From an uncultured Rhodospirillales bacterium (GTDB lineage Bacteria; Pseudomonadota; Alphaproteobacteria; ATCC43930; CGMCC-115725), in contig CAIKMD010000006.1 of NCBI GenBank assembly GCA_903828515.1, positions 558,001-622,000 on the forward strand: a stretch of 64,000 nucleotides of DNA. The letters run 5' to 3'. Shown one piece after another: positions 6,378 to 38,447 of this stretch. The translations under genes were made by a program, and so were the position numbers. Under the pieces are notes generated by a model. The model did not search any database, had not been told where the DNA came from, and saw nothing but the letters and a program-made list of their open reading frames with translations. How positions within the stretch are numbered: the first letter of the stretch is position 1; every line of letters begins with the position of its first letter.

Positions 6378-6389
6378 TGTATGTACAAG
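6376..6389. promoter_or_regulatory. HutC-type operator between divergent hut operons
   Basis: CATGTATGTACAAG differs at one base from the palindrome CTTGTATGTACAAG and contains TGTA-N2-TACA (6378-6387), the core I recall for HutC, the GntR-family repressor that responds to urocanate. An overlapping perfect palindrome ATACATGTAT lies at 6373-6382. The site sits midway between the start codons at 6325 and 6411, so one repressor could control both arms. No hutC gene is in the window. Confidence 0.7.
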
Positions 6390-6410
6390 CTTGCAAGCGT
6401 GAGAGTCTCC

Positions 6411-15689: not shown

Positions 15690-15709
15690 GCTGAGAGGAC
15701 GGGTCCCGC

Positions 15710-16804
15710 ATGCGCAAGGTCGAACTTGGCATCTTCATGCCGATTGCGAGCAATGGTTTCATTTTTTCCAAACGCGCGCCGCACTACATCCCGACATTCG
15801 AGTTGCATCGGCAAATCGCCGTCCTGGCCGAGGAAACCGGGCTCGATTATCTGTTCTGGATGGGGAAGTGGATGGGGTATGGCGGCCCGACCCGGCATTG
15901 GGAAGAGTCGCTCGAACCGATCACCCTATCGAGCGCGATCGCCGCGTCGACGAGCCGGCTGAAACTCTTCGCGACGATCAATCCGCTGCTCTTTCATCCG
16001 ACCGTCGCGGCGAAGATGGTGGCGACGATCGACGATGTCAGCGGCGGCCGCTTCGGGATCAACATCGTCACCGGCAACACGCTCGACGAATACTATCAGA
16101 TGGGCATCGTCCCCGAGGGCTATAACGAATACCGCTATCAATACGCCGAGGAGTGGACGACCGCGATCAAGGCGCTCTGGACGCAGGAGAAAGTAACTTT
16201 CAAGGGGCGGTTCTTCGATCTGACCGATTGCGTCTCGGCGCCGAAGCCGCAACAGAAACCCTATCCGGCGATCGTGAGCGCCGGCACGTCCGATGAAGGG
16301 TTGCGGTTCGGGGCGAAGCATTCGGATTATGCCTTCATGGGCCTGCGGGCCGAGGAAATCGCCAAGACACGGGGGTTTGCCGCCGAATACGGGCGCACCA
16401 TCAAGATTGCGACGAATCTGTTCCTGCTGCCGCGGCCGACCGATGCGGAGGCGGAGACCGAACTCGCGGCCCTGCGGACGGAGCTCGATCACGAGGCGCT
16501 CGAGAATCTCATTGCCTCGACGGAGCGCGACATGCGCGATGCCAAGCGGGCCGACTATTTGCGGGCGCCGCACATCATCGGTTTCGGCAACGGCATGCCG
16601 GTCGCGGGGTCGCCTGAGACCATTGCGCGCAAACTGGCGAAACTGATCATCGAGAACAACGTCGATGCGCTGCAATTCACCTTCCTCGATTTCATCAAGG
16701 ATCTCGGGGTTTTCCGGCGCAGCATCGCGCCGATCCTGAAAGATTTGCTCGCCCGCGAAAGCGTGTTCGTCAATCTCGGGGAAGAACGAGCGACGGCAGC
16801 TTGA
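15710..16804 (+). CDS. RutA-like flavin-dependent monooxygenase (LLM class)
   Basis: 364 residues. The N-terminus (LGIFMPIASNGFIFSKRAP, PTFELHR) and the middle (GGRFGINIVTGNTLDEYYQMG, AGTSDEGLRFGAKHSDYAF) follow pyrimidine monooxygenase RutA, which opens the uracil ring with a flavin peroxide. Other Rut enzymes (RutB, D, E, F, G) are absent, so uracil is not established. It lies 20 bp after the NtaA-type gene. A RidA protein, the RutC fold, is encoded 2 kb away on the other strand. An N-heterocycle or amide substrate is plausible. Confidence 0.85.
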   Translation: MRKVELGIFMPIASNGFIFSKRAPHYIPTFELHRQIAVLAEETGLDYLFWMGKWMGYGGPTRHWEESLEPITLSSAIAASTSRLKLFATINPLLFHPTVAAKMVATIDDVSGGRFGINIVTGNTLDEYYQMGIVPEGYNEYRYQYAEEWTTAIKALWTQEKVTFKGRFFDLTDCVSAPKPQQKPYPAIVSAGTSDEGLRFGAKHSDYAFMGLRAEEIAKTRGFAAEYGRTIKIATNLFLLPRPTDAEAETELAALRTELDHEALENLIASTERDMRDAKRADYLRAPHIIGFGNGMPVAGSPETIARKLAKLIIENNVDALQFTFLDFIKDLGVFRRSIAPILKDLLARESVFVNLGEERATAA

Positions 16805-20338: not shown

Positions 20339-21367
20339 TTATGCGCCGGCGGTGGCCAGGACCAGGGTCTGGGCGGTGTTCGGCACGGGCAGTATCTCGA
20401 TGTCGCCGAAGCCGGCTTCGCGACACATCACGCGCAGATCGCGAACCGTGTGGGCGTCGCCTTCCGGCGTGCCGGTCAGCATGGTCAGGGCGAAGAGAGC
20501 CTGGAAGGGCGGCGACACCCGATCCTCGTTCGGCACGTATTCGAGGATGGCAAGGCGGCCGCCGGCGACGAGCGCGCCGCGCACGCGCCGCAAAAAGTCG
20601 ATACAGGTCGGTATGCCGAAGTGATGAAGGAAATTCGGTACCAGCACGAGATCGTAATCGTGCCCGAAATCGATCGTGAACGCATCGCCCGGACGCGTGA
20701 CGTAGCGCGCGTCGATCCCGGCTTGCGTCGCGTTCTTGCGCGCGAGTTCGAGGACGGGCGCCCAATCCACCGCGACAATCCCGGCATGGGGATTGCGGCG
20801 CGCGACCTCGATGCCATAAAGGCCGTGTCCGGCGGCGATATCGAGAACGTGGCGGGGCGCGATGCCGGCGGCGACCAGCATGTCGGCCATTTGACGGGCG
20901 ATGGGCGCCACGAGCGGCACCATGCCGACCGCGAAATCCACCCAGATCGGATTGTCGGGCGCCACATTGGCGAGGTCGCCGGGGCCGCCCCGCCGGACCC
21001 ATCCGGCGGGATCGTCGAGGAAGCGCTGAAACTTTTCGGCCGACGCCGCGAACTTCGCCAAGCCGCCGAGATAATCCGCCGAGCGTTTATCGAGATAGAC
21101 CGCGCTGTCGGGCGTCAGGCGATAGGATTGACCATGCTTGGTCAAAAAGCCGAGAACGGTCAGCGAATCGGCCAGGACGCGCATGCCGCGCGGCGAAGCT
21201 TCGCATCGCGCCGTCAGCGCTTCGACCGTATCGACGCCCTCGGCGATCGCCGTGAAGACGTCGAGATCGATCGCCGCCCGCAGGACGGCGGTTTTTTCGA
21301 ACGCGCTGAGGGTTGCGGTGATGAGGGCCGGCGATGCCGAGGCGGGTTGGGTCACAATCGTTATCAT
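20339..21367 (-). CDS. SAM-dependent O-methyltransferase (COMT/hydroxyneurosporene type)
   Basis: 342 residues. An N-terminal winged-helix dimerisation domain (residues ~15-110) precedes a Rossmann methyltransferase domain with motif I VLDIAAGHGLYGIEVA near residue 170, then VPNFLHHFG and GGRLAILEYVP. It resembles acetylserotonin, caffeate and hydroxyneurosporene methyltransferases, so it probably methylates a hydroxyl group. It heads the leftward trio. A 7-bp inverted repeat lies directly upstream of its start. Confidence 0.85.
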   Translation of the reverse strand: MITIVTQPASASPALITATLSAFEKTAVLRAAIDLDVFTAIAEGVDTVEALTARCEASPRGMRVLADSLTVLGFLTKHGQSYRLTPDSAVYLDKRSADYLGGLAKFAASAEKFQRFLDDPAGWVRRGGPGDLANVAPDNPIWVDFAVGMVPLVAPIARQMADMLVAAGIAPRHVLDIAAGHGLYGIEVARRNPHAGIVAVDWAPVLELARKNATQAGIDARYVTRPGDAFTIDFGHDYDLVLVPNFLHHFGIPTCIDFLRRVRGALVAGGRLAILEYVPNEDRVSPPFQALFALTMLTGTPEGDAHTVRDLRVMCREAGFGDIEILPVPNTAQTLVLATAGA

Positions 21368-21392: not shown

Positions 21393-21595
21393 GGGGTGCG
21401 CTGCCGACCGTCTTGATCGGACAGGCATAAAAAGTTGGGCCGCGCCGGGGGGCGGTTTTTCGGCCATATTTGATGCGCCGAGAGGCAAGACCGGCCAACC
21501 GCCGGCTCCCTAGCCTTGCGCGGGCGGCTTGAAAGCTATCGAGCCGCGTTGGCTGCTTTTGAAATCGTGATGCGATCAACAAGAGGGTTCCCGGC

Positions 21596-22780
21596 ATGAA
21601 ACGCCCATCGCTGGACGACGCATTCTTCGCGAGCCTCGATTCATCGGTCCTCGACGTGAACGACGCGGAGATGCTGCCGCCGGCCTGTTACGTGTCGGAT
21701 GAATTTTACGAGTTCGAGAAAAAAGCGATCTTCGATCGGGAGTGGCTGTGCGTCGGCCGCGAGAGCTGGGCGAAGAATCCCGGCGACTATTTCACGACGA
21801 TGCATATCGGCGAGCCGATCGTGGTCACGCGCGGCCAGGACGGCGTGCTCCGCGCCTTATCGAATGTCTGTCAGCATCGCGCCATGCTGGTCGCCGAAGG
21901 TCACGGCACGGCGCGCTCGTTGCTCTGCCAATATCATCATTGGGCTTACGGCCTCGACGGCAAGCTGATCGGCGCGCCCGCCATGGAGCAGGCGCGCGGC
22001 TTCGACAAAAATTGTGTCCGGCTGCCCGAGTTCAAGCTCGAGACGTGGCTCGGCTTCGTCTTCGTCAATTTCGACAACGATGCCCCGCCGCTCAAACCGC
22101 GGCTCACCGTCATTACCGAAGCTCTGAAAAATTATCACCTCGAAACCGCCGAAGGAATCCAGCCCGACGAATGGACCAAATTCGATTGGAACTGGAAGGT
22201 GATGATGGAGAACAACAACGACGGCTACCACGCCAATAAGCTGCATGCCGGACCGCTGCACGACGTGGTGCCGAGTCACCTTGCCACGTTTCCCGATCTT
22301 CCCGACGATACCGCCGCCTATTTCCGCTACAACGGCGCGAAGCACGAAGATGCCGGCTTCAATCCGACCCATCGCGCCTTGCTGCCGGTGTTTCCGGAAC
22401 TGACCCGCGCGGAAAGGAACACCTTCATTTTCGGCAATTTGCCGCCGACCCTGTCGCTGGTGGTGATGCCGGAGATGATCACCTTCATCATTCTTCATGC
22501 GATATCGGCCAGCGAAATGGCGCAGACGCGCGGCTGGCTGGTGGCGCCGGGCGTGATGCAGCAGTCCTTGTTTGCCGAAAAACTGGGGATCATCCAGCAA
22601 TCGGTCCGCGGGATCGTGGCCCAGGACCTTCACGTCGACAGTCAGATTTCAATCGGACTGCGCTCGCGTTTCGCGACGCGCGGCCGTTACTCCTGGCAGG
22701 AGCGCTCGCAGCGCGAACTCAACAATTGGCTGGTCCAGCGCTACCAGCGGACGTGGCGCGATATGCGGACGACAATGTAG
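21596..22780 (+). CDS. Rieske oxygenase alpha subunit (family copy 1)
   Basis: 394 residues. Rieske ligands C92-x-H94 and C111-x2-H114; iron site D209-G-Y-H212 with H217; third ligand likely D344 in VAQDLHVD. The C-terminal GRYSWQE and NNWLVQRY segments are shared by the seven related copies in 21.6-41.8 kb. No beta subunit follows, so an alpha-only oligomer is expected. It is the first and most separate copy. CQYHHW replaces the CPYHHW or CAYHHW of its relatives. RBS AAGAGGG. It converges on the extradiol dioxygenase gene (26 bp between the ends). Confidence 0.92.
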   Translation: MKRPSLDDAFFASLDSSVLDVNDAEMLPPACYVSDEFYEFEKKAIFDREWLCVGRESWAKNPGDYFTTMHIGEPIVVTRGQDGVLRALSNVCQHRAMLVAEGHGTARSLLCQYHHWAYGLDGKLIGAPAMEQARGFDKNCVRLPEFKLETWLGFVFVNFDNDAPPLKPRLTVITEALKNYHLETAEGIQPDEWTKFDWNWKVMMENNNDGYHANKLHAGPLHDVVPSHLATFPDLPDDTAAYFRYNGAKHEDAGFNPTHRALLPVFPELTRAERNTFIFGNLPPTLSLVVMPEMITFIILHAISASEMAQTRGWLVAPGVMQQSLFAEKLGIIQQSVRGIVAQDLHVDSQISIGLRSRFATRGRYSWQERSQRELNNWLVQRYQRTWRDMRTTM

Positions 22781-22806: not shown

Positions 22807-23595
22807 TCACTGCGCCTTTCCGAACACGACGCTCAGCATGCTCATCGCGCCTTCGGATACGCCGTCGATCGGGATCGTCGCCTCGTCGGTGCCGGCCGCG
22901 CCGGCGACATAGAGAAGCGGATAAAAATGATCGGGAGTCGGCGCCGACAAGGTCGCGGCCTCGCCCAATGCTTCGTATTCCACCAGCGCGCCGAACCGGT
23001 GCGCCAAAAGATTTTCGCGAACGTAATCGTTGAAGCGGATCGCCCATTCATAGGCGAAATCCGAATTCCGCTGGCGCAGCATGAGGTTGTGGACGACGTT
23101 TCCGCTTCCCAGAATCAGGACGCCTTCGTCGCGCAAGGGCCGCAGCCGCTTGCCGATCTCGAAATGGAAGGCGGGTGGCCTCGTCATGTCGATGCTCAAC
23201 TGCACGACCGGAATGTCGGCGTCGGGAAAGGCTTTCGAGAGCACCGACCAGGTTCCGTGATCGAGGCCCCACGAATCATCCGCGACGATCGGCAGCGGCT
23301 GAAGCAGCTCGGCGACGCGACGGGCGAGTTCGGGATCGCCCGGCGCCGGATAGCGAATGTCATACATCGCTTTGGGGAATCCGCCGAAATCGTGAATGGT
23401 CGGCGGTGCCGCCATCGCGGTGATCCCGGTTCCGCGCGTGCACCAATGCGCCGAAATCGCCAGAATCGCCCGCGGTTTGGGCAGTTCGTCGCCGACCCGC
23501 CGCCATCCTTGGGTCCACTCGTTGTCGGCCAGCACATTCAATGGCGTGCCGTGCCCCATGAAGACGCACGGTATGCGATCTAACTTCGAACCCAT
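22807..23595 (-). CDS. DODA-type (LigB-superfamily) extradiol dioxygenase
   Basis: 262 residues, usual length for the 4,5-DOPA-dioxygenase-type class III ring-cleaving family (YgiD/DODA). Metal-site histidines lie in FMGHGTPLN, ISAHWCTRG, IHDFGGFPKAMYD, and GNVVHNL. It would open a catechol-type ring with O2. ATG 23593-23595 has AGGAG at a good distance; the longer reading from 23631 lacks a site. It may cleave products of the neighbouring Rieske oxygenases (inference). Confidence 0.9.
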   Translation of the reverse strand: MGSKLDRIPCVFMGHGTPLNVLADNEWTQGWRRVGDELPKPRAILAISAHWCTRGTGITAMAAPPTIHDFGGFPKAMYDIRYPAPGDPELARRVAELLQPLPIVADDSWGLDHGTWSVLSKAFPDADIPVVQLSIDMTRPPAFHFEIGKRLRPLRDEGVLILGSGNVVHNLMLRQRNSDFAYEWAIRFNDYVRENLLAHRFGALVEYEALGEAATLSAPTPDHFYPLLYVAGAAGTDEATIPIDGVSEGAMSMLSVVFGKAQ

Positions 23596-23755
23596 GAAGC
23601 CGGCTCCTGACCGGAAAAAACCAAGTCTCAACCGTGTACCCGAGGCCGCCGGTCGATTCTTGACTGACCATGCCTGAAAATTTGCCAGCCTTGGCTAGTG
23701 GATGCGCATGGTCGGCTCGCTCCGAGGATACATTTGCATGCCGTCGCCAGCGGTT

Positions 23756-23839: not shown

Positions 23840-26254
23840 ATGCTGTTGAACCGGTCCTATTTTACGACCGAGGAATACCCCGGAAATCGGCGCGCGGACG
23901 CCTGGAAAGACGTACTCGCGTCGCTGTCCCTGCGCCTCAAGGGGCTGGACGAAGAAGACGGGTTTCACGGCAGCGCGCGCACGACCGTCTCGCCGCTGGG
24001 CATTTCGTTCGCGCGGCTGGTGTCCTGCCCGCAAATTATCTGCAACGGCGCCGACAAAAGCGAGGACGGGATTTGGCTCGCCTTGCATCAACGCGGCAAG
24101 GCCTTCATCGAGACGGGCGACGGCCGGACCGAGATCGCGGCCGGCGATTTCACCTATGGGCCGCTGCGCGCGCCTTTCGCGATGTCGTTCGTCACCGATT
24201 TCCAGGCCTTCTTCGTCAAGATTCCGCGGCGCGTTCTCGACGCGCGGCTGGTGACGGGCTTCGCGCAGCGTGTCGGGTATCTCTCCGGCGCTACCGGGAT
24301 CGGGCATGTTTTCGGCGCCATGCTGGGCTCGGTTTCCGATTCTATCGACGAGTTGAGCGGCGACCGGCTTCGTCCGGTCGAACTGGCGCTCACCGAATTT
24401 CTCGCCGCGTGTCTCGCCGACGAGGCGCCGGTCGGCATGTTGCGCGGCGCCACCGGCACGCAGATGAATATCCTCAATCGCATCTGTCAGTTGATCGAGG
24501 TGCATCTTGGCGAGCACGATTTCAGCCGCGAGGTCGTGGTCCGCGAGGAACGCATCTCCGCGCGCTATGTCCAGAAACTGTTCGAGAACGCCGGCGAGAC
24601 CTTCGGCCATTACCTGCGCCTGCGCCGGCTCGAACGCTGCCGGTCCGAACTGATCAATCCGCTCTACGCGCGGCTCTCCATCACCGAGATCTGCTATCGC
24701 TGGGGCTTCAACGATTCGGCGCATTTCAGCCGCGCCTTCCGCGAGCAATACGGGACCTCGCCGCGCGCCTATCGCAAGCTGGCGGGAACCGGTCCTGCCG
24801 CGGGCGGCTACGCTCAGACCGGCCGTGGCTGGCCGGAAGGCGCGTTCAAGGAATTGCGCCGTCTCGCGTCCAAACCGGTCGATGAACCGACGCTGCCCAA
24901 GCGCGCCGCGCCGGGCCGCAACGCCGCCCAAGGCAACACGGTGCCTGCCGCCGTTGCCAAGAAATTGGCGTTCCCCGAATTGGTGGCGCCCAAACATCAC
25001 TATCTGCCGGCCAACGACAAGACGGTGCATTGGGGTTATTTCAGCAAAAACATGGCCCCGACCCTGACCGTCAATTCCGGCGAGATGGTCACGATCGAGA
25101 CGCTGACCCATCACGCGAATGACGATTTCGAACGCATGGTGTCCGGCGATCCGGGCGCCGAAAGCGTCTTTCAGTGGAGCCGCGACCGCAAGAACATCAA
25201 TCGGCGTGGCGCCGGTCCGGTCGATGCGTCCGTCTATGGGCGCGGCGCGGGCGAAGGTTTCGGAGTCCATCTCTGCACCGGTCCGATCGCGGTCAACGGC
25301 GCCGAACCGGGCGACGTCGTCGAATTGCGCATCCTCACCGTAAGGCCGCGCCTGAGCACCAATCCGACCTATGCCGGCCGCGCTTTCGGCAGCAACGCGG
25401 CCGCCTGGTGGGGATTTCACTACAAGGAACTCCTAACCGAGCCGAAGCCGCGCGAAGTCGTGACGATCTACGAGATCGATTGGCACAACGGCCATTACGC
25501 GAAGGCGGCCTATAATTTCCGCTGGACGCCGCAGCGCGATCCGTCGGGCGTGATGCATCCGACGATCGACTATCCGGGCGTGCCCGTCGATCATTCGACG
25601 ATCGTCGAGAACCACGACATCCTCAAAGGGGTGAAGATTCCCCTGCGGCCGCATTTCGGTGTCCTTGGGCTCGCGCCGAAGGAAGCCGACATGGTCGATT
25701 CGATTCCGCCGTCCTATTTCGGTGGCAATCTCGACAACTGGCGCGCGGGGCAGGGCTCGACGATCTATCTGCCGGTTTCGGTGCCGGGCGGTCTCCTGTC
25801 CGTTGGCGATCCGCATGCGTCGCAAGGCGATTCGGAATTGTGCGGCACCGCGATCGAATGCTCGCTGACCGGAACATTCCAGATCGTGCTCCACAAGAAG
25901 GGCGATCTGGCCGGCAAGCCGATCGCCGATCTCAACTATCCGCTGCTCGAGACGCCCAAGGAATGGGTCATCCACGGGTTCAGCTTCGCCAATTACCTGG
26001 CCGAACTGGGCGATACCGCGCAGAGCGAAATCTACAAGCGCTCGTCGCTCGATCCGGCGATGCGCGACGCGTTCTGGAAAATGCGGCGCTTCCTGATGAC
26101 CACCAAAGGGCTTTCCGAGGACGAGGCCATTTCGCTGATCTCGGTCGCCGCCGATTTTGGCGTGACCCAGGTTGTCGATGGAAACTGGTGCATCCACGCG
26201 CTGCTGCGCAAGGAACTGTTCGAGGACGGGCGGCGGGACGATCTGCCGCGTTGA
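23840..26254 (+). CDS. AraC-type regulator fused to acetamidase/formamidase
   Basis: 804 residues in one frame. Residues ~20-200 match the AraC-binding-like sensor domain (WLALHQRGKAFIETGDGR). Residues ~212-315 form a full two-HTH AraC domain, ending FNDSAHFSRAFREQYGTSPR. A linker (~316-384) leads into an FmdA/AmdA-family amidase (~385-804) with KTVHWGYF, LTHHANDDF, GGNLDNWRAGQGSTIYLPV (~627) and GDPHASQGDSELCGTAIE. No frameshift or internal stop separates the parts. Amidases of this family hydrolyse formamide, acetamide and similar amides. A protein that binds DNA and handles the amide could sense its own substrate (inference). The free paralogue follows at 26411. Confidence 0.9.
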   Translation: MLLNRSYFTTEEYPGNRRADAWKDVLASLSLRLKGLDEEDGFHGSARTTVSPLGISFARLVSCPQIICNGADKSEDGIWLALHQRGKAFIETGDGRTEIAAGDFTYGPLRAPFAMSFVTDFQAFFVKIPRRVLDARLVTGFAQRVGYLSGATGIGHVFGAMLGSVSDSIDELSGDRLRPVELALTEFLAACLADEAPVGMLRGATGTQMNILNRICQLIEVHLGEHDFSREVVVREERISARYVQKLFENAGETFGHYLRLRRLERCRSELINPLYARLSITEICYRWGFNDSAHFSRAFREQYGTSPRAYRKLAGTGPAAGGYAQTGRGWPEGAFKELRRLASKPVDEPTLPKRAAPGRNAAQGNTVPAAVAKKLAFPELVAPKHHYLPANDKTVHWGYFSKNMAPTLTVNSGEMVTIETLTHHANDDFERMVSGDPGAESVFQWSRDRKNINRRGAGPVDASVYGRGAGEGFGVHLCTGPIAVNGAEPGDVVELRILTVRPRLSTNPTYAGRAFGSNAAAWWGFHYKELLTEPKPREVVTIYEIDWHNGHYAKAAYNFRWTPQRDPSGVMHPTIDYPGVPVDHSTIVENHDILKGVKIPLRPHFGVLGLAPKEADMVDSIPPSYFGGNLDNWRAGQGSTIYLPVSVPGGLLSVGDPHASQGDSELCGTAIECSLTGTFQIVLHKKGDLAGKPIADLNYPLLETPKEWVIHGFSFANYLAELGDTAQSEIYKRSSLDPAMRDAFWKMRRFLMTTKGLSEDEAISLISVAADFGVTQVVDGNWCIHALLRKELFEDGRRDDLPR

Positions 26255-26263
26255 TCTTGGGTT

Positions 26264-26280
26264 TCGTCCTCATCGGACGA
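26264..26280 (+). terminator. Weak hairpin after the AraC-amidase fusion
   Basis: TCGTCC-TCATC-GGACGA, a 6-bp stem 9 bp after the stop at 26254, followed by an A/T-rich stretch (GACAATTAAATG) but no T-run. It may mark the transcript end, or be chance. Confidence 0.25.
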
Positions 26281-26410
26281 GACAATTAAATGTACCCCAC
26301 CGGTCAAGACCACCGATCCCCCCGAACCTAGCGTATCGAGGGCAAGACAGAGGCGGAAAGACAGCCTCGTTTTGCCGGCGCGACCCCTCTTTCAAGAGAG
26401 AGCACTCGAT

Positions 26411-27442
26411 ATGCTTCATGTTCTGCCGGCGAGAAAAGAAACCGTTCACTGGGGTTATTTCGATGCCGGCCTCGCACCGGTCCTGCAGGTAAAAAGCGGC
26501 GATCTCGTTCGGATGGAGGCGGTTACCCATCACGCCGGCGACGCGCCCGATCTCCTGATGGATGAGGGCATCCGCCAGCTCTATCGCGACGTTCCTGAAT
26601 CCGATCGGTTTCCCGGCGTGCACATCATGACCGGCCCGATTTACGTCGAAGGCGCGCGCCCCGGCGACATGCTCGAGATCCGTTATCTCGAGATGACACC
26701 GCGGCTGCTCTACGGCTCGAATCTCGCGGCCAATTGGGGCTATCTCTATAAAGAGTTCGGCGAGAAAGAACGGGTGACGATCTATTCGATCGACGCCAAC
26801 AGCAATCAGGCCGAAGCCGTGTTCGCCTACAACTACCCCGGCAAATACATGACGCCCGGGAAAATTACCGATACCAAAACCTGCGATTGCCAGCCGGCGC
26901 TCGTCGGATTCCGGGTGCCGGTGCGGCCGCATCTCGGTACCGCCGGCGTGGCGCCCGACGTGAAGGGACGCATCAGCACGATTCCGCCTGGCATTCATGG
27001 CGGCAATATCGACAATTGGCGCATCGGTGCCGGCGCCACGATGTACTACCCGGTCGCGGTCGATGGTGGGCTGTTCTCGGTCGGCGACCCGCATATCTCG
27101 CAAGGCGACGGCGAGATCAGCGGCACGGCGATCGAAGCCTCGCTCGACGTTTTGCTGCAGATCAATCTTCGCCGCGACTTTCACTTTCCGTCGCCGCTGC
27201 TCGAGACGCCGAACGAGTGGATCGTTCATGGCTTCGACGAGGATCTCAACGTGGCGATGCGCTCGGCCTCGCTCGAAATGCTGAAGCTCCTGACCGACAT
27301 TCAGCACACGTCGCGCGACGATGCCTATTCGCTGATGAGCGTCGCGGCCGATTTCGCCGTGACCCAGGTGGTCGATGGGCGACAGGGCGTTCATGTGCGT
27401 ATCCCGCGCTCGGTGTTCCCGCCGCGCAAACGGTTAAGCTGA
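26411..27442 (+). CDS. Acetamidase/formamidase family amidohydrolase
   Basis: 343 residues covering one FmdA domain: ETVHWGYFDAGLAP at the start, AVTHHAGDAPD, VPVRPHLGTAGVAPD, GGNIDNWRIGAGATMYYPV (from residue ~197) and VGDPHISQGDGEISGTAIE with the metal-site His, Asp and Glu. It releases ammonia from a small amide; which amide is unknown. ATG 26411 follows AAGAGAGAGC. It aligns with the C-terminal half of the fusion upstream but is shorter, lacking an insert of about 40 residues after the THH motif. The binding-protein gene follows immediately. Confidence 0.9.
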   Translation: MLHVLPARKETVHWGYFDAGLAPVLQVKSGDLVRMEAVTHHAGDAPDLLMDEGIRQLYRDVPESDRFPGVHIMTGPIYVEGARPGDMLEIRYLEMTPRLLYGSNLAANWGYLYKEFGEKERVTIYSIDANSNQAEAVFAYNYPGKYMTPGKITDTKTCDCQPALVGFRVPVRPHLGTAGVAPDVKGRISTIPPGIHGGNIDNWRIGAGATMYYPVAVDGGLFSVGDPHISQGDGEISGTAIEASLDVLLQINLRRDFHFPSPLLETPNEWIVHGFDEDLNVAMRSASLEMLKLLTDIQHTSRDDAYSLMSVAADFAVTQVVDGRQGVHVRIPRSVFPPRKRLS

Positions 27443-27445
27443 GCT

Positions 27446-28324
27446 TTGTTCGTGCGACGTTGGGCCCAGGCTTCTCGCTGGTTTCATGGTCTTGGACTTC
27501 TGATCCTGTGCCTCGGCCTGGCCGGATGGCCGGACCGCGCGGCGGCGGCCGAACCCAAATGCGAACCGGCGAAGATCGGCACGAAATATCCAAGCCTCGC
27601 CGGGAAGACTTTTCGGTCCGCGATCGATCCGGCGGGCAAGCCCTACGCCTATCGCGTCCCGGATGACCTGACGAAAATCACCGGTCTCGATGCCGAATTC
27701 GCACGCGCGGTATTTTCCTGCATCGGCGCGCCGGTGGAGTTCGTCGTCGGCACGTTGTCGGGCATCGTGCCCGCGATGGCCGCCGGTCAGATCGATCTGA
27801 CCTTCAGCCATTTCATCTATACGCCGGAGCGCGCTCAACAAGTCGACTTCGTGCTGTTCTACAAAGTCAGCGCGGTCATCGTGGTTCAGAAGGGGAATCC
27901 GAAGAACATTCGTTCCCTCAACGATCTTTGCGGTCTGCGCGGCGCCACGCAATTGGGGAGTACCGAAGTCGACACGCTGCAGCGGACGACGGATGCCTGC
28001 GTCGCGGCGCATAAGGGCGAGATCGTCGTCTCCTACGCGCCCAATCGCCCATCGGGGCTCCAGCAACTGCAGACCGACCGAATCGATGCATTGCTCGGCA
28101 TCGGCACGGCGGTGACCTACGCCAGCGATCTCTTCGATATCGCGGGGACCTACGTCAACGGCGGCCTCGCCGGCGTCGGCACGCGCAAGGGGGACAAAGA
28201 ACTTCAGCAGGCGATCTTTGATGCCGTGACGGTTCTGCAGGCGAACGGCGAGGAGAAGAAGCTCTACGAGACGTTCGAAGTCGATCATGCCTATGCCGCG
28301 CCGCCGAAGATCGTGGCGCAATGA
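27446..28324 (+). CDS. Amino-acid-type (family 3) ABC substrate-binding protein, copy A
   Basis: About 290 residues. Start uncertain: TTG 27446 or GTG 27452, both with weak sites. Signal peptide FHGLGLLILCLGLAGWPD, ending near AAAAEP. The mature start has CEPAKIGTKYPSLAGKT, a signature shared with copies at 30817, 33803 and 38448. The family-3 pattern continues with GLDAEFARAVFSCIGAP, YTPERAQQVDFVLFY and GSTEVDTLQ. It should pair with the permease-ATPase fusion at 31951. It precedes two Rieske genes. Confidence 0.87.
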   Translation: MFVRRWAQASRWFHGLGLLILCLGLAGWPDRAAAAEPKCEPAKIGTKYPSLAGKTFRSAIDPAGKPYAYRVPDDLTKITGLDAEFARAVFSCIGAPVEFVVGTLSGIVPAMAAGQIDLTFSHFIYTPERAQQVDFVLFYKVSAVIVVQKGNPKNIRSLNDLCGLRGATQLGSTEVDTLQRTTDACVAAHKGEIVVSYAPNRPSGLQQLQTDRIDALLGIGTAVTYASDLFDIAGTYVNGGLAGVGTRKGDKELQQAIFDAVTVLQANGEEKKLYETFEVDHAYAAPPKIVAQ

Positions 28325-28373: not shown

Positions 28374-29579
28374 ATGAAGGGTTCGTGTCTGACCTACGAA
28401 TTTTTTGCCAGCCTCGACAGCTCGGCCTGCGATGTGAACGCGGCGGAGACCCTGCCGCCCGCCTGCTACATGGACCCGACATTCTACGAATTTGAAAAAG
28501 AAGCGATCTTCTATCGCGAGTGGCTGTGCGTCGGCCGAGAAGCATGGGCGAAAGAGCCGGGCGATTTCTTCACGGCCACGCAGGTCGGTGAACCGATCAT
28601 CGTCGTCCGCAACCGTGACGGCATGTTGAAAGCCCTGTCGTCGGTGTGTCAGCACCGCGCGGCGTTGGTCGTGGAAGGTCACGGCAACGCAAGATCGTTT
28701 CGCTGCCCTTACCATCATTGGACCTATTCGCTGGACGGAAATCTGGTCGCGGCGCCGGAAATGGATCGGGCGTGTAATTTCGACAAGGCGCAGGTCCGGT
28801 TGCCCGAAATCAAGCTGGAGGTCTGGCTCGGCTTCGTCTTCATCAACTTCGATCCCGATGCGGCGCCGCTGGCGCCGCGCCTGTCGGCGGTGACCGCGAT
28901 TCTCCAGAACTACGATCTTTCCGGCGCCGATGAGCGGCGTCAGCCGGTGGATCTCCGCAAGGAGATGTGGAACTGGAAGATTCGCTACGAGAACGCCAAC
29001 GACAATTATCACGCGCCGCGTCTGCATGCGGGCCCGGTGACCGATTGCTTCACCACCGACCTGCCCGATTTTCCCGATCTGCCGGCCGATACGGCGGGCT
29101 ATTACCGGACCAACCGCACCACGCATCCCGATTTCAGCCTGAACGTCACGACGAAAGCGGCCTTGCCGATTTTCCCCAAGCTGACCGCCGAGGAGCGTCA
29201 TCGCGTCGTCTTTCTTTGCGTGCCGCCGACGCTGACGATGAATTGCTGCTGCGACGTGGTGAATTTCACCATGTTCTATGTCGAAGGGGTCGCTGAAATG
29301 TCGTCGCGTCGCGGCTTCGCCGTGGCGCCGGGCGCGATGGCGCAGCCCTTGTTCGAAGAGGTGTGGAAGACGCTCGTCGGCAAGGGCCGGGCGGAAGTCC
29401 AGGACCAGGACCGCTATGTCGACAAGCTCGTGCAGACGGGGCTCGGCTCGAAATTCGCCATTCGCGGCCGCTACTCGTGGCAGGAGAAATCGCAGAACGA
29501 ACTCAGTTCGTGGCTGGTGCGGCGATACCAGGAATTTTGGAAGCGGCAATCGCAGCCGCAAGGCGCTTTGACATCATGA
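28374..29579 (+). CDS. Rieske oxygenase alpha subunit (family copy 2)
   Basis: 401 residues. Rieske ligands begin at C92 (CQHRAAL, then CPYHHWTYSLDG); the iron site is D210-N-Y-H213 with APRLH, where N replaces the G found in most relatives, and A-P replaces A-N before the second His. The last ligand is likely the D in QDQDRYVDKLVQ. The active-site differences suggest a distinct substrate. RBS GGGGAGGG. It is followed by another copy after 7 bp. Confidence 0.92.
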   Translation: MKGSCLTYEFFASLDSSACDVNAAETLPPACYMDPTFYEFEKEAIFYREWLCVGREAWAKEPGDFFTATQVGEPIIVVRNRDGMLKALSSVCQHRAALVVEGHGNARSFRCPYHHWTYSLDGNLVAAPEMDRACNFDKAQVRLPEIKLEVWLGFVFINFDPDAAPLAPRLSAVTAILQNYDLSGADERRQPVDLRKEMWNWKIRYENANDNYHAPRLHAGPVTDCFTTDLPDFPDLPADTAGYYRTNRTTHPDFSLNVTTKAALPIFPKLTAEERHRVVFLCVPPTLTMNCCCDVVNFTMFYVEGVAEMSSRRGFAVAPGAMAQPLFEEVWKTLVGKGRAEVQDQDRYVDKLVQTGLGSKFAIRGRYSWQEKSQNELSSWLVRRYQEFWKRQSQPQGALTS

Positions 29580-29586
29580 TGAACTT

Positions 29587-30783
29587 ATGACGCACGCCGT
29601 GTTGGACGACGCCTTCATCGACAGCCTCGCGATTTCGGTCTGCGACATCAATCGCGCCGTCGCCCTGCCGCCGTCCTGTTACACCGATCGCGAATTCTTC
29701 GAGTTCGAAAAGGAAGCGATTTTCAATCGCGAATGGCTGTGCGTCGGCCGGGAATCCTGGGTCAAGGAACCGGGCGATTATTTCACGACGTCGCATGTCG
29801 GCGAGCCGATCATCGTCGCGCGCACCCGCGAGGGCGAACTCAAGGCGATGTCGGCCGTATGCCAGCACCGCGCCGCTTTGGTCGCGGAAGGCCACGGTAG
29901 CGTGCGGTCTTTCATGTGCCCCTATCATCACTGGACCTACGCGCTCGACGGGCGCCTGGTGTCGGCGCCCGATATGGAGCGGGCCGAGGAATTCGATTGC
30001 GCGGCGATCCGCCTGCCCGAGATCAGGCTCGAGACCTGGCTCGGGTTCATCTTCATCAATTTCGATCTGGATGCGGCGCCGCTCGGTCCGCGGCTGACCG
30101 GGTTGACCGACGCCCTCGCGAATTACGATCTGGCCAATGCCGACGGGGCGAGCCGTGGCGAAGCCCTTGGCGCGGGCTGGGGACAGAAATACGCGTGGAA
30201 CTGGAAGGTCCATTTCGAAAACAGCAACGACTCCTATCACGCGAACAAGCTCCACAAGGGCTTCAACGAGATCATGCCGACCGCGCTGGCGAGTTTTCCC
30301 GAGATGCCGGAAGGAAGCGCCGGGTACTACCGCGACGGTCCGACGCTCGAGAAGGACGCGGGGTTCAATCCGACGGATCGCGCGATCCTGCCGATTTTCC
30401 CGAAGTTGACCGACAAGGAACGCGGACGCGTGATCTTCGCGAACATTCCGCCGAGCTTCACCCTGTTCGCGCGGGTCGATCTCGTCGTCTTCAACATCAT
30501 TCACGTCCAAGGCCCCGAGGAAATCGCCACCGGCAGCGGTTGGCTGGTCGCGCCCGGCGTCTCGAAGCAGCCGCGCTTTCAGGAGCGCAAACAGATGACG
30601 AGCAGTGCCAATCCCGAGGTCCAGCGCCAGGACCGGCATGTCGATGCGCTCGTGCAGACGGGGTTGCGGTCGCGCTATGCGACGCGCGGACGATATTCCT
30701 GGCAGGAGGGCGCCCAGGCGATCTTCAACAATTGGCTGGTCGATCGGTATCGCGCGTCCTGGGGCAAGCGCAAGCCGGGCTGA
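29587..30783 (+). CDS. Rieske oxygenase alpha subunit (family copy 3)
   Basis: 398 residues. Ligands C92 (CQHRAAL) and CPYHHW; iron site D215-S-Y-H218 with ANKLH. It carries a short insert (ASRGEALGAGWGQKYAWNW) before the iron site where its relatives have a shorter charged stretch. C-terminal RQDRHVDALVQ and GRYSWQE are conserved. It starts 7 bp after copy 2 with only a weak ribosome site, so translation is likely coupled. The tandem arrangement could give two specificities or a mixed oligomer. Confidence 0.92.
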   Translation: MTHAVLDDAFIDSLAISVCDINRAVALPPSCYTDREFFEFEKEAIFNREWLCVGRESWVKEPGDYFTTSHVGEPIIVARTREGELKAMSAVCQHRAALVAEGHGSVRSFMCPYHHWTYALDGRLVSAPDMERAEEFDCAAIRLPEIRLETWLGFIFINFDLDAAPLGPRLTGLTDALANYDLANADGASRGEALGAGWGQKYAWNWKVHFENSNDSYHANKLHKGFNEIMPTALASFPEMPEGSAGYYRDGPTLEKDAGFNPTDRAILPIFPKLTDKERGRVIFANIPPSFTLFARVDLVVFNIIHVQGPEEIATGSGWLVAPGVSKQPRFQERKQMTSSANPEVQRQDRHVDALVQTGLRSRYATRGRYSWQEGAQAIFNNWLVDRYRASWGKRKPG

Positions 30784-30816: not shown

Positions 30817-31680
30817 ATGGGTCGCTCATCACGCCTGGCCGTTCTGCTGACGGCCTTGTTGTTTCCCGCCGCCATCGTTTTATCGCTGTCTCCGGCGTTC
30901 GCCGCCGATCCGACCTGCGAACCGGGCAAACTGGCGACGAAATATCCGAGTCTTGCCGGAAAGACGATCAAGTTGAGCATTACCGGCGACGGCAAGCCGC
31001 TCAGCTATCGCGATCCGAACAATCTCGACAATGTCATCGGTTTCTCGCCCGATCAGGCCCGTGCCGCCTTCGCCTGTATCGGCGCGCCTTACACGCTGAC
31101 CGTCGTGCCGTTCTCGGGGGCGCTCGCCGCGCTGATCGCGGGGCAGGTCGATGTCTTCTGGGGAACGCTCTTCTATTCGCCCGAGCGCGCGAAGGCAGTC
31201 GATCTCGTGACCTACATGGTGGGCGCGTCGGGCGGCGTCGTGCCCAAGGGCAATCCTAAAAACATCGGCGGGCTCGGTGATCTCTGCGGCCTGCGCGCGG
31301 TGGCGCCTGTCGGCGGGATGGAGGTGATCAAGCTCAACGACACCAATCAGGCCTGCCTTGCCGCGCACAAGCCCGGGGTCGAAGTGATGACGGCCACCGA
31401 TCGGCCTTCCGCCCTCCGCCTCTTCGAGAACGATCGGGCGGATCTCTATCTCGGTATCGGCTTGAAGCAGGCTTACGATCCGGCGCTTTACACCTTCGCC
31501 TTCGCCTATGTGAACGACCTCAAGACCGGCGTCGGCGTCCACAAGGGCGACAAGGATCTGGACCAGGCGATCTACGATGCCTTCGCGGTCATGCACAAGG
31601 ACGGGACCGACAAGGCCCTGTTGACCAAATACGAGATCGATCCCGGTTTGAGCGTGCCGCCGGAAATCATCGTGCAGTGA
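30817..31680 (+). CDS. Family 3 ABC substrate-binding protein, copy B
   Basis: 287 residues. Signal peptide SSRLAVLLTALLFPAAIVL with cleavage near AFAAD. The mature start carries CEPGKLATKYPSLAGKT, as in the other three copies, then FSPDQARAAFACIGAP and YSPERAKAVDLVTYM. RBS ACGAGGAGAA. It is the copy nearest to the permease-ATPase fusion (270 bp downstream). The gap 31681-31950 holds a GGGCCG/CGGCCC hairpin (31780-31795) with no T-run and no gene I can support. Confidence 0.9.
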   Translation: MGRSSRLAVLLTALLFPAAIVLSLSPAFAADPTCEPGKLATKYPSLAGKTIKLSITGDGKPLSYRDPNNLDNVIGFSPDQARAAFACIGAPYTLTVVPFSGALAALIAGQVDVFWGTLFYSPERAKAVDLVTYMVGASGGVVPKGNPKNIGGLGDLCGLRAVAPVGGMEVIKLNDTNQACLAAHKPGVEVMTATDRPSALRLFENDRADLYLGIGLKQAYDPALYTFAFAYVNDLKTGVGVHKGDKDLDQAIYDAFAVMHKDGTDKALLTKYEIDPGLSVPPEIIVQ

Positions 31681-31950
31681 CGCCGGCGACGATCGGCGAT
31701 CGCAACCAATGAGGGCGGCCCCTCCACCCGACTCGTCTCGAAAAACCTCGATATTGGAATGGGTTGGCCGCATCGCAGCGGGCCGGCTGCGGCCCGTGCG
31801 CCTGGGGCAAAATCTTGTGCGTGAGGGTCCAAGTACGCCGTCGGCGGCGACGATAGTCTCAAATCTGCCAAAAAAAGAATCACGCGCCTTCTGGGAACAA
31901 GGGAACCGACGGGAAGGCGGCAGCGATAACCGGCAGCCAACGAGGACGTA

Positions 31951-33663
31951 ATGCACGTCTCGATCTTCCACCGACCCGCCTATTTCGCCGTGATCGCGAC
32001 CCTGAGCGTATTGTCGGTGTTCGGTATCCGCATCGCCTATGCCGCTGACGCCGACTTGTCTCGGCTCGAGGCGACCGGGGTTTGGCTCCAAAACGTCGGC
32101 CACTACGCGACGATGCCGTTCCTGTTGCGCGGCGCCTACCTCGCCATCGAAATCTCCGTGCTCGCCCTGTCGGGCGGATTGATGCTGGGTCTTCTCCTCG
32201 CCGTGATGCGCCTCTCGCGGCTGAAGGCGGCAAGGGGTTTCGCCTGGGGTTATGTGTGGTTCGTGCGCGGCACGCCGCTGCTGCTGCAACTGGTTTTTCT
32301 CTACGACGCCCTGCCGGCCATCGGTATCAAGCTCGACAGCTTCACGACGGCCGTGCTGGGCTTCGCGCTCAACGAGGCCGCGTTCAGCGCGGAGTTCATT
32401 CGCGGCGGATTGCTCTCGGTCAATCGCAACCAGACCGTGGCGGCGGCGTCGCTCGGCATGTCGCCGTTTTTATCGTTGCGGCGGATCATCCTTCCACAAG
32501 CGATGCGCGCGATTCTGCCGGCGGTCGCCAACAGCGCCGTCAGCATGATCAAGGGGACCTCGGTCGCCTCGGTGATCTTCGTCAATGAACTCACGTTCCG
32601 CAGCGAACAGATCGTCGCGCAGAACTTTCAGTTCTTCACGGTGCTGACCGCGGCGGGCCTGATCTATCTCGCGATGACGACGGTGGTGGGATCGGCGCAG
32701 GCGGCGCTGGAGCGGCACTACAGCCTGGATCGCGATGCCAGTTCGCAAAAGCCGTCGGTCTTTGCGCGGCTGCGCAATCTCTTTCCGCGTCGCGCCGCCG
32801 CGCCGGTTTGCACCGAACCCGTCGGTCCGCTGCCGGCCGTGAATAACTGGCTCGAGGATTTCGGCGCTGCTTTTCCGCCTCTGGTCAACGACAAGGATAC
32901 GCGCTGTCTCGTCTGCACCAATGTCCAGAAGTCCTATGGCGACAAGGAAATCCTGCGCGGCCTCGATCTGACGGTCGAGCGCGGCGAAGTCGTCGTCATC
33001 ATCGGCCCGAGCGGTTCGGGGAAAAGCACGCTGCTGCGGCTGATCAATCATCTCGAACACCTCGACTGGGGCGAGATCAAGGTCGACGGCGCCTATGTCG
33101 GTTACGAAAAAATCGGCAACGGGTTGAAGCCGCAGCGCGATCTCGCCAAGGCGCGGGCGGCGGCGCGCATCGGCATGGTGTTCCAGCATTTCAATCTCTT
33201 CGATCACCTGACCGCGCTGGAAAACGTGATCGAGACGCCCGTGCACGTCTATGGCGAGAATCCGGAAAAGGCGCGCGCCCGCGGCATGCGTCTGCTCGAC
33301 AGCGTCGGGCTCTCCAACCACGCCAATCTTCTGCCCCACCGGCTCTCGGGCGGCCAACAGCAACGCGTGGCGATCGCGCGCGCGCTGGCGATCTCGCCGC
33401 GCCTGATGCTGTTCGATGAGCCGACCTCGGCGCTCGATCCCGAACTCGTCGACGAAGTCCTCGGGACGATCCGTAGCCTCGCCCTGGGCGGGATGACGAT
33501 GGTCGTGGTGACCCACGAAATCCGCTTTGCCCGCGAAGTGGCCGATCGCATCGTCTTCATCGACGAGGGCGAAATCGTCGAACAGGGCACGCCGGAAAAG
33601 GTTCTGGGCAGCCCCGAACACGATCGGACGCGGCGCTTTCTGCGCATCGTCGAGCACGCCTGA
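31951..33663 (+). CDS. Fused amino-acid-type ABC permease-ATPase
   Basis: 570 residues. Residues ~1-270 are a HisM/GlnP-type permease (RGTPLLLQLVFLYDALP and AAASLGMSPFLSLRRIILPQ, the EAA loop). Residues ~328-570 are a GlnQ/HisP-type ATPase with Walker A GPSGSGKST (~351), Q-loop MVFQHFNLFDHLTALEN, signature RLSGGQQQRVAIAR, Walker B LMLFDEPTSALD and switch VVVTHEIRFA. The two are usually separate genes. As the only channel in the Rieske region, it probably serves all four family-3 binding proteins (27446, 30817, 33803, 38448). Confidence 0.93.
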   Translation: MHVSIFHRPAYFAVIATLSVLSVFGIRIAYAADADLSRLEATGVWLQNVGHYATMPFLLRGAYLAIEISVLALSGGLMLGLLLAVMRLSRLKAARGFAWGYVWFVRGTPLLLQLVFLYDALPAIGIKLDSFTTAVLGFALNEAAFSAEFIRGGLLSVNRNQTVAAASLGMSPFLSLRRIILPQAMRAILPAVANSAVSMIKGTSVASVIFVNELTFRSEQIVAQNFQFFTVLTAAGLIYLAMTTVVGSAQAALERHYSLDRDASSQKPSVFARLRNLFPRRAAAPVCTEPVGPLPAVNNWLEDFGAAFPPLVNDKDTRCLVCTNVQKSYGDKEILRGLDLTVERGEVVVIIGPSGSGKSTLLRLINHLEHLDWGEIKVDGAYVGYEKIGNGLKPQRDLAKARAAARIGMVFQHFNLFDHLTALENVIETPVHVYGENPEKARARGMRLLDSVGLSNHANLLPHRLSGGQQQRVAIARALAISPRLMLFDEPTSALDPELVDEVLGTIRSLALGGMTMVVVTHEIRFAREVADRIVFIDEGEIVEQGTPEKVLGSPEHDRTRRFLRIVEHA

Positions 33664-33802
33664 ATCCGATGAATACCGGCCGGTTTTCCGGACAAATCAT
33701 TATGCGGATGCGATCAAGTCCGTGGCGTGGCCGCGACCTAGTATTTCAGGCGTCGTCACGCTCGCGGGCGGTGACGCGCGAACCAGATGGAAAGGCCCTG
33801 AC

Positions 33803-34657
33803 ATGAACTTGCGTCTCCTGGCGTCGATCGGCGCTTGTGCGGTGGTTTTGGGTATTCTGGTATCGGGGAGCCCGGCATTGGCGCAGGCCGCGAAATGCGA
33901 GCCGCAGAAAGTCGCCACGAAGTATCCCGGCCTCGCCGGAAAAACCCTCAAGGTCGGGGTGAGCGCGGCGGACAAGCCGACCTCGTTTCGCGACGAGAAC
34001 GACCCCAACAAGATCACCGGGTTCGATCCCGAATTCGCCAAGGCGGTCTTTGCCTGTATCGGCGTCCCCTTCGAATTTTCGGTCGGTGGATGGTCGGGGC
34101 TGATGCCGGCTTTGGTCGCCGGCCAGACCGATGTCATGTGGGATGGGCTCTATTACACGCCGGAGCGGGCAAAATCGGTCGATTACGTGCTCTACACGTC
34201 GGCCGGTTCGGCCATCGTCGTCCCGAAAGGCAATCCGAAAAAGATTCATTCGCTCGATGATCTCTGCGGCCTGAAATCGGTCTCCCAGATCGGCAGCACC
34301 GAAATCGCGACCATGCAGAAGACGAGTGACGCCTGCGTCGCGGCGCATAAACCCGAGGTGACGATCGTCGCCTCGCAGGACCGGCCGAGCGGCATTCTTC
34401 AACTGACGACCGGCCGTGTCGACGCGTATCTCGGTATCGCGATCGCGGCGTATGATCCGGCGCTCACCGAGATCGCCTATACCTACAGCACCGGGATCAA
34501 GATCGGCGTCGGTGTCGGCAAGGGCAACAAGGTGCTCGAAGAGGCGATCTACGACTCGATCAAGATTCTGCAGGCCGACGGCACCGCCAAGAAATTCTAC
34601 GGGATGTTCAATCTCGATCCGGCGTTGGACGTTCCGGCGCAAATCGCCCTGCAATAA
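33803..34657 (+). CDS. Family 3 ABC substrate-binding protein, copy C
   Basis: 284 residues. ATG 33803 follows AAAGG. Signal peptide LLASIGACAVVLGILVSGSP, then AQAAKCEPQKVATKYPGLAGKT. The family pattern follows: GFDPEFAKAVFACIGVP, YTPERAKSVDYVLYT and GSTEIATMQKTSDACVAAHK. Part of the repeating unit 'binding protein then Rieske oxygenase'; copy 4 of the oxygenase starts 25 bp downstream. Confidence 0.9.
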   Translation: MNLRLLASIGACAVVLGILVSGSPALAQAAKCEPQKVATKYPGLAGKTLKVGVSAADKPTSFRDENDPNKITGFDPEFAKAVFACIGVPFEFSVGGWSGLMPALVAGQTDVMWDGLYYTPERAKSVDYVLYTSAGSAIVVPKGNPKKIHSLDDLCGLKSVSQIGSTEIATMQKTSDACVAAHKPEVTIVASQDRPSGILQLTTGRVDAYLGIAIAAYDPALTEIAYTYSTGIKIGVGVGKGNKVLEEAIYDSIKILQADGTAKKFYGMFNLDPALDVPAQIALQ

Positions 34658-34682
34658 AGCGATACGTAAAACGGAGACAGAC

Positions 34683-37082: not shown

Positions 37083-37258
37083 GGAGGCGCTCCTTCGAAT
37101 CGTCGAATCCACGCGCACCCGAAACCTTAGTCGCCGCGTCGGCCGGTGGACTTGCCCCGCCGCGCACAACGAATTGCCCCGTCGTATCGATCTGCCCCCG
37201 TCGCCGATCGCGCCGTTATATCGTCGCGCTTTCGAGTGTCGCTCAGCGGAGGATTTCG

Positions 37259-38281: not shown

Positions 38282-38447
38282 CCGTTTTGCCTCATTCGTG
38301 GGGGTGCTCCGGCGGGGCGGAAAATCGGCAACTTATTGTTCGCCACGCGGCAAGCGGCCGGCCGGGGTTCCATTACGATTTCAACATGCAAAACCGGCCG
38401 GGAAAGCTTGCCCGGCACGGTTTTCTCAGATCGGAAGCGGGTGTCGG

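Follow-up and report, generated by a model that had tools for sequence, protein, structure and literature searches.

A conserved one-chain fusion of an AraC-type regulator and an acetamidase/formamidase, a candidate amide-responsive activator of Proteobacteria

The window analysed here, 64,000 nucleotides of a contig from an uncultured Rhodospirillales bacterium, contains a gene in which an AraC-family transcriptional regulator is joined to an acetamidase/formamidase. Judged from sequence, its product is one polypeptide of a conserved family, with a recurring gene neighbourhood, a linked candidate operator and an intact amidase core. The open reading frame (ORF) begins with the ATG at 23840, its stop codon ends at 26254, and its 804 codons include zero internal stops; codon-position GC averaged over the ORF is 0.63, 0.47 and 0.80, the pattern of a coding frame. 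All Pfam domains score above their cut-offs, namely AraC_binding_2 at residues 74-190 (30.8 bits against 27), HTH_18 at residues 235-313 (74.7 against 33.6), HTH_AraC at residues 278-313 (43.2 against 26.6) and FmdA_AmdA (99.5 against 27), which bears out the claim, made earlier from the letters and their translations (the sequence-only reading), that a full AraC regulator with its helix-turn-helix (HTH) motifs runs unbroken into a full amidase domain.

Structural comparison agrees with these assignments. Residues 385-795 match the solved structure 3b9t by sequence with 655 bits, and a Foldseek comparison of the amidase half with the same structure gave 65% identity and a TM-score by target length of 0.90-0.91; the AraC half matched CuxR structures by fold and ToxT structures more loosely. 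In an AlphaFold2 model built on an alignment of 80 fusions, with a mean predicted local distance difference test score (pLDDT) of 78.9 and a predicted TM-score (pTM) of 0.56, the N-terminal sensor region is mostly of high pLDDT, with strands and helices, and linker residues 317-382 lie below 50. Both halves are thus predicted to be folded, whereas the pTM and the low linker scores do not fix their mutual placement.

Altogether 95 one-frame fusion loci were gathered, the window's included, and the frame is open in the other 94 too. The number counts loci and not independent events, as the proteins form 72 clusters at 90% identity; those of L043 and L067 are identical, and two loci are contigs of one metagenome-assembled genome (MAG). 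A tblastn search of plasmids found 15 of 72,556 records with one place covering at least 80% of the query, and plasmid fusions were seen in Paraburkholderia, Caballeronia, Variovorax, Novosphingobium, Rhizobium, Neorhizobium, Sinorhizobium and a Hyphomicrobiales bacterium. By match span, a full-length fusion is present in 2 of 61 relatives (G000 and G007), in 8 of 398 genomes sampled across the phylum and in 4 of 385 from the class, the window's own genome being counted each time, and among the relatives the one other genome of the window's genus had no full-length fusion; given these low counts, the fusion is widespread, yet not common. A scan of named genomes, in which the query was an alignment of 14 fusions and the best 80 of 525 relatives were used, gave a one-frame fusion in 79 of these 80 (the remaining one ends at a contig edge), a ratio that mirrors the query and the ranking and not prevalence. 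By class, 36 of the 79 named loci are Beta, 30 Alpha and 6 Gamma, with 7 unassigned. L095, one of these 79, is a contig of a MAG titled Actinobacteria; its fusion groups among Novosphingobium in the tree, and the contig is therefore probably misbinned. Four of five annotated fusion records are labelled 'acetamidase/formamidase family protein' and one 'AraC family transcriptional regulator', so that each label hides the other half. The statement in the sequence-only reading that no regulator of this make-up had been described agrees with the open-licence literature, in which no description of an AraC-FmdA_AmdA architecture was found, subscription papers and preprints lying outside that scope. 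Widespread characterised examples had been named as a possible refutation; the family did turn out to be widespread and conserved, but the same literature yielded no described example.

Conservation is unevenly distributed along the protein. Mean pairwise identity among the 95 fusions is 32% in the N-terminal sensor, 55% in the HTH region, 19% in the linker and 69% in the amidase. Although linker length ranges from 40 to 93 residues and its conservation is low, an RGxP motif lies inside it in all 95; unfused AraC relatives (14 of 14) end at most 28 residues past the HTH match. Five amidase groups were compared, and of the residues with a constancy of 85% or more in every one of them, H477, D492, D632, D657, H659, D664, E666, E673 and E704 are kept in every fusion and N519 in 88 of the 95. 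A degenerate pseudo-enzyme is thus unsupported, the core residues being retained. Other positions have changed: Y644 is leucine in all 95 fusions, whereas it is tyrosine in all 33 close and 45 distant partner amidases and in 80% of 15 other close relatives, leucine being usual in seven far amidase relatives. H424 is replaced by Q in 60 of the 95, D547 by other residues in 45, D780 by N in 36 and T776 by S in 24, and these four are constant in the stand-alone groups of 33, 15 and 45. The suggestion that the fused domain had turned from catalyst to sensor therefore finds only partial support, from the changes at positions that are constant or almost constant in close stand-alone groups; it is opposed by the retained core and by the window's own copy, which retains H424, D547, T776 and D780.

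The amidase-domain trees bear on the origin of the fusion. In a tree of 187 rows, which took in 87 of the 95 fusions, the fusions form one group (1 change, support 92), and they do so again, with support 91, in a thinned tree of 44 rows with 26 fusions, for which all 95 were entered and thinned by identity and the seven far amidases were omitted; both trees omit weak amidase rows and those cut by contig ends (L006, L007, L079, L095, L117, that of L024 and the second L046 frame). Neither support value is starred, hence a single origin is likely rather than proven. Beside the fusions in the tree lie stand-alone amidases, and the stop-to-stop frames of many of these have long additional N-termini; the nearest are those of L005 and L045. 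Among 299 genomes (E up to 1e-25) no close unfused AraC half was found, the best unfused match reaching 114.9 bits where the weakest fused one has 142.

The separate amidase that the sequence-only reading saw behind the fusion is a rule of these loci, occurring in 62 of 65 well-flanked ones (the others are L049, L081 and L118), and a search of the own genome with PF03069 found just the fusion and this separate amidase. The window's separate amidase sits in another clade of the family than the fused domain and is therefore not a recent copy of it, and a recent duplication of the adjoining gene as the source of the fused domain was accordingly rejected. Across loci the separate partners belong to either a close or a distant clade, whereas the fused domain remains in one group, which speaks against mere enzyme duplication. 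The fused amidase evolves faster than its partner: mean identity is 74% against 83% where the partner is close, the fused domain having the lower value in 351 of 402 pairs, and 72% against 74% where it is distant, with the lower value in 604 of 779. Both are strongly conserved, and the rate gap therefore leaves catalyst or sensor undecided.

In the same 65 loci a permease/ATPase occurs 28 times, a Rieske oxygenase 27, a solute-binding protein 26 and a LigB/DODA dioxygenase (DODA) 25. Two neighbourhood sets recur. Set A comprises a solute-binding protein, a one-chain permease/ATPase, an amidase and often RidA, and is found mostly in Burkholderiales and rhizobia; set B comprises a Rieske oxygenase, a LigB/DODA dioxygenase and a distant-clade amidase, in Sphingomonadales, Parvibaculum, Hyphomonas, Paraglaciecola and Aliiglaciecola. 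Some loci, in Cupriavidus, Pandoraea and Aquabacterium, have little except the amidase by the reference set used. The window combines both sets: the DODA and a Rieske gene lie on the left of the fusion, and on its right come the amidase, solute-binding proteins, the permease/ATPase and further Rieske genes. Nitrile hydratase, dihydropyrimidinase and RidA were met as neighbours in single loci, and the substrate is settled neither by these nor by the recurrent Rieske and LigB genes. Among the 41 largest neighbour-ORF families, the ones that occur in four or more loci of each set are amidases and shadow frames of the amidase or fusion, which makes the fusion the only regulator common to both sets within these families; the count covers locus neighbours, and another regulator may be encoded outside the loci. 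An unfused AraC regulator stands beside the separate amidase in two fusion-bearing loci (L094, 12281-13357, and L114, 12314-13414). The window itself contains a striking local expansion of eight Rieske alpha-subunit genes, several of which are separated by genes for family 3 solute-binding proteins (Table 1).

Upstream regions of these genes share a candidate operator. Spaced word pairs were counted in 250-bp upstream stretches and in stretches inside genes, and the top pair, GTGC-N9-CAAG, was found upstream in 46 of the 95 loci against 0 of 95 in the within-gene control. The aligned sites read approximately CAA-N4-TTGTGCGC-N7-ACAAG, with CAA boxes starting 22 bp apart, and the resulting direct repeat, CAA-N4-TTGTGC-N9-CAAG, precedes transporter, amidase, LigB-dioxygenase and Rieske genes. 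For a cross-test the loci were assigned by hand to set A (solute-binding-protein or Burkholderiales type) or set B (the rest). The set A matrix, at a 99% shuffle threshold, passed in 33 of 122 set B upstreams (27%, against 1.4% for column-permuted matrices): DODA 13/28, Rieske 10/27, amidase 8/30 and fusion 2/37. Conversely, the set B matrix passed in 40 of 191 set A upstreams (21%, against 2.6% for permuted matrices), with 25/35 for the solute-binding protein, all 25 sites being forward, 10/49 for the amidase, 3/20 for RidA, 0/40 for the permease/ATPase and 2/47 for the fusion. Of the 76 loci that are 10 kb or longer, 49 have their best site, by the matrix trained on the other set, in front of a target gene and in its orientation; a site counted if it fell from 60 bp inside to 300 bp before the start, for a chance area of about 2.5%. 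Both matrices place the window's best site before a target gene.

Within the window, the eight best sites of a pooled matrix, which had one window site in its training, all fall within 21.4-38.4 kb. Five of them are oriented towards a cluster gene whose called start is 20-115 bp downstream, and two more would fit if the over-long ORFs 35892-37169 and 38298-39302 start like their paralogues. The pattern with up to two mismatches matches nine times in the window against 1.34 expected, none of 100 shuffles giving as many; the ninth match, at 12409, lies outside the cluster. The own genome (4.8 Mb) has six exact matches, four of them inside the window and the other two in L132 (C6:979000-988000) and L131 (C2:21000-31000). 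One of these two falls inside the called start of a solute-binding-protein paralogue ORF and would precede the gene if a later ATG is the start; the other is in a divergent intergenic region, 83 bp upstream of a gene and close to weakly Rieske-like genes. The genes at the L132 and L131 sites are possible outlying members of a predicted regulon.

Table 1. Coordinates of the fusion gene, its parts, neighbouring genes and candidate operators in the window
Feature	Position	Strand	Remarks
AraC-FmdA fusion gene	23840-26254	+	804 aa
N-terminal cupin-like sensor region	23861-24454	+	about aa 8-205; AraC_binding_2 match at 74-190
Double HTH DNA-binding region	24455-24793	+	about aa 206-318
Linker	24794-24988	+	aa 319-383; RGWP at aa 329-332 (24824-24835)
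Acetamidase/formamidase domain	24989-26251	+	aa 384-804
Separate amidase, distant partner clade	26372-27442	+	356 aa as called
LigB/DODA-type extradiol dioxygenase	22807-23631	-	
O-methyltransferase-like gene	20339-21367	-	candidate site in front
Family 3 solute-binding protein	27446-28324	+	
Family 3 solute-binding protein	30817-31680	+	
ABC permease/ATPase in one chain	31951-33663	+	
Solute-binding protein ORF	38298-39302		start as called over-long
Rieske alpha subunit	6381-7571		
Rieske oxygenase alpha subunit	21596-22780	+	
Rieske alpha subunit	28374-29579		
Rieske alpha subunit	29587-30783		
Rieske alpha subunit	34416-35876		
Rieske alpha subunit	35892-37169	-	
Rieske alpha subunit	39343-40530		
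Rieske alpha subunit	40557-41768		
Candidate operator before methyltransferase gene	21407-21440	-	
Candidate operator before Rieske 21596	21461-21494	+	2 mismatches to pattern
Candidate operator between DODA and fusion, towards DODA	23654-23687	-	2 mismatches
Candidate operator before separate amidase	26280-26313	+	2 mismatches
Candidate operator before ABC permease/ATPase	31805-31838	+	window's best; itself a matrix training site
Candidate operator, no close gene start downstream	33690-33723	+	next Rieske ORF at 34416
Candidate operator at called start of Rieske ORF 35892-37169	37146-37179	-	about 60 bp before start estimated from paralogues
Candidate operator inside called start of ORF 38298-39302	38326-38359	+	about 80 bp before start estimated from paralogues

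Since the 41 largest neighbour families hold no other shared regulator, we infer that the fusion would bind the candidate site and activate the genes behind it. The reading we favour, with a probability of roughly 0.5, is that of a cluster-specific AraC activator whose fused amidase pocket senses substrate or product, the separate amidase carrying out most of the catalysis. In this reading a cytosolic AraC/XylS-type activator, a one-component system, would have gained a complete C-terminal amidase domain, probably once; it would bind the two-part direct repeat before the neighbouring genes and turn on those for solute uptake, the separate amidase, the LigB-type ring-cleaving dioxygenase and the Rieske oxygenases. 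The signal would be an amide, or its product, bound in the fused pocket, and the linker with its fixed RGxP would relay the state of the amidase domain to the AraC part. That the uptake and ring-breaking neighbours, which look amide-related, are turned on by the fusion is probable. The amidase pocket is favoured as the sensor because the amidase is the best conserved part with its core intact, a separate amidase is usually near, and among the folded parts the original sensor varies most; moreover, with a separate amidase in nearly every locus the fusion as a mere enzyme would look redundant. A sensing or trigger-enzyme role of the amidase domain is thus plausible, and the odds for its pocket being the sensor against all other arrangements taken together are about even. 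The broader proposal, on which we are more tentative and which falls somewhat short of even odds, is that these proteins make up a widespread and so far undescribed class of one-component regulators: a working amidase domain, and not the AraC cupin, would read its own substrate or product and, through the RGxP linker, switch an AraC module that binds tandem repeats, which would make the protein a built-in trigger enzyme for amide and aromatic-amide catabolism.

Several observations weigh against the amidase pocket as sensor or against the operator assigned to the fusion. The N-terminal sensor region aligns across nearly its full length in the fusions and may be the real sensor, and the fused amidase may simply be an enzyme, because its core is intact. 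The structural model does not fix the relative placement of the halves. In 27 of the 76 loci the best site lies elsewhere than in front of a target gene, and in some loci the score is close to nil; several of the 27 misses may be sites before unmodelled gene classes. The site is rare upstream of the fusion itself and of the permease/ATPase. Nor is the cross-test wholly blind, because the motif came from pooled loci, the division into sets was manual and close relatives count as separate loci. With up to two mismatches the own genome shows no excess, with 88 matches against 87 in a reversed control. The exact pattern failed as a marker of fusion-bearing genomes, no exact site being found beside the fusion in ten other such genomes; the four exact hits in fusion-bearing G094, G472 and G255 are located away from it. 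Over all 30 genomes searched, 5 have exact hits elsewhere, 6 altogether.

Among the alternatives, the one that survives best, though we consider it unlikely, is a bifunctional regulator in which the N-terminal cupin senses the inducer and the fused, active amidase makes or destroys that inducer nearby as a signal limiter. The core residues present in every fusion would suit such an enzyme, and the AraC_binding_2 match above cut-off in the window and the mostly high pLDDT of the sensor region would suit such a sensor; the sensor is, however, the least conserved folded part (32%). When pairs are compared at equal HTH identity, sensor identity is lower in fused than in unfused proteins at 50-60% (29.5% against 38.3%, 7 unfused pairs) and at 60-70% (34.7% against 53.5%, 5 unfused pairs), and a third bin with faster sensor divergence in fusions contains a single unfused pair; the order is reversed at 40-50% (25.1% fused against 14.7% unfused, 27 unfused pairs) and level at 30-40%.

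Less probable still is an uncoupled fusion in which regulator and enzyme share a chain for co-expression alone. A linker of variable length, poorly conserved and of low predicted confidence is what such an arrangement would allow, but it would not account for the fixed RGxP inside that linker, the separate amidase in nearly all loci or the gap between unfused and fused AraC halves in the 299 genomes.

We give little credence to the chain being cut in the cell, with RGxP perhaps as the processing site, or restarted within the linker, so that two proteins result, the latter having been named in the sequence-only reading as a possible refutation. A conserved short motif inside a low-confidence linker would fit processing, and the window's linker, which has no in-frame ATG, contains six GTG/TTG codons, two of them after a Shine-Dalgarno-like stretch. 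Against this, a single open frame is retained across the clade, and an in-frame ATG occurs in the linker of 17 of the 95 fusions, preceded by a Shine-Dalgarno-like stretch in one; no conserved ATG start thus exists there. The same crude test succeeds at the assumed start of the whole fusion in just 22 of the 95 and is therefore weak evidence either way. A sequencing or assembly artefact joining two genes, likewise raised earlier as a frameshift, is refuted by the same open frame in 94 other loci, including plasmid records labelled complete.

The activator favoured here can be set beside known systems. With FeaR/AraC_binding_2-type regulators the fusion shares a cupin-like N-terminal domain and two HTH motifs, and the nearest full-length solved structure of this half, by sequence and fold, is CuxR (5nla); it differs from FeaR-type regulators in having nearly 490 further residues, the linker and a whole amidase. 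With the FmdA_AmdA family (PF03069), represented by 3b9t of Methylobacillus flagellatus, it shares the fold, the 65% identity over about 410 residues and the core residues; a difference is the leucine at Y644 common to all fusions. The 3b9t protein bears the name of a twin-arginine pathway signal protein and lacks a regulator part, whereas the fused amidase is joined to a DNA-binding protein whose start, inspected by eye, has no export signal. Against the FeaR profile NF007243 the fusion scores 114.6 bits over residues 22-313, below the curated cut-off of 199, and against the formamidase FmdA equivalog NF045496 it scores 54.3 bits, below 500; it therefore matches AraC and FmdA_AmdA by profile and fold and falls outside FeaR and formamidase FmdA proper. 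Regulators of the AraC/XylS family bind tandem direct-repeat sites and activate genes nearby; for the fusion, a candidate direct-repeat site linked to target promoters was seen.

MocR/GabR regulators combine a GntR-type HTH with an aminotransferase-like domain and are likewise regulators with a whole enzyme fold as effector part, but their HTH family and enzyme fold are others, and in the fusion the enzyme was added to a complete regulator that retains its own sensor. The trigger enzyme PutA, and Ada with its AraC-type HTH and methyltransferase, also have enzyme and DNA binding in one chain; in the fusion a coupling of the two is what we propose. Trigger enzymes are active enzymes whose ligand state alters gene expression, and we know of no amidase among them. 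By analogy, the fusion would work like such enzyme-derived regulators without belonging to them.

The family adds a conserved enzyme-derived module to AraC regulators and gives experiments a handle through its predicted operator and regulon and through defined residues that can be altered. How a metabolic enzyme becomes a transcriptional sensor could be asked directly here, since there are stand-alone sisters, fused copies with H424, D547, T776 and D780 retained, such as the window's, and fused copies in which these have changed. The fusion is also a candidate regulator for Rieske, LigB and amide-related clusters in Proteobacteria. Elsewhere in the window, two luciferase-like monooxygenase genes adjoin NMT1/THI5-type solute-binding proteins and an ABC transporter (14349-16801), and a GPP34 (Golgi phosphoprotein 3-like) domain protein is encoded at 43830-44468.

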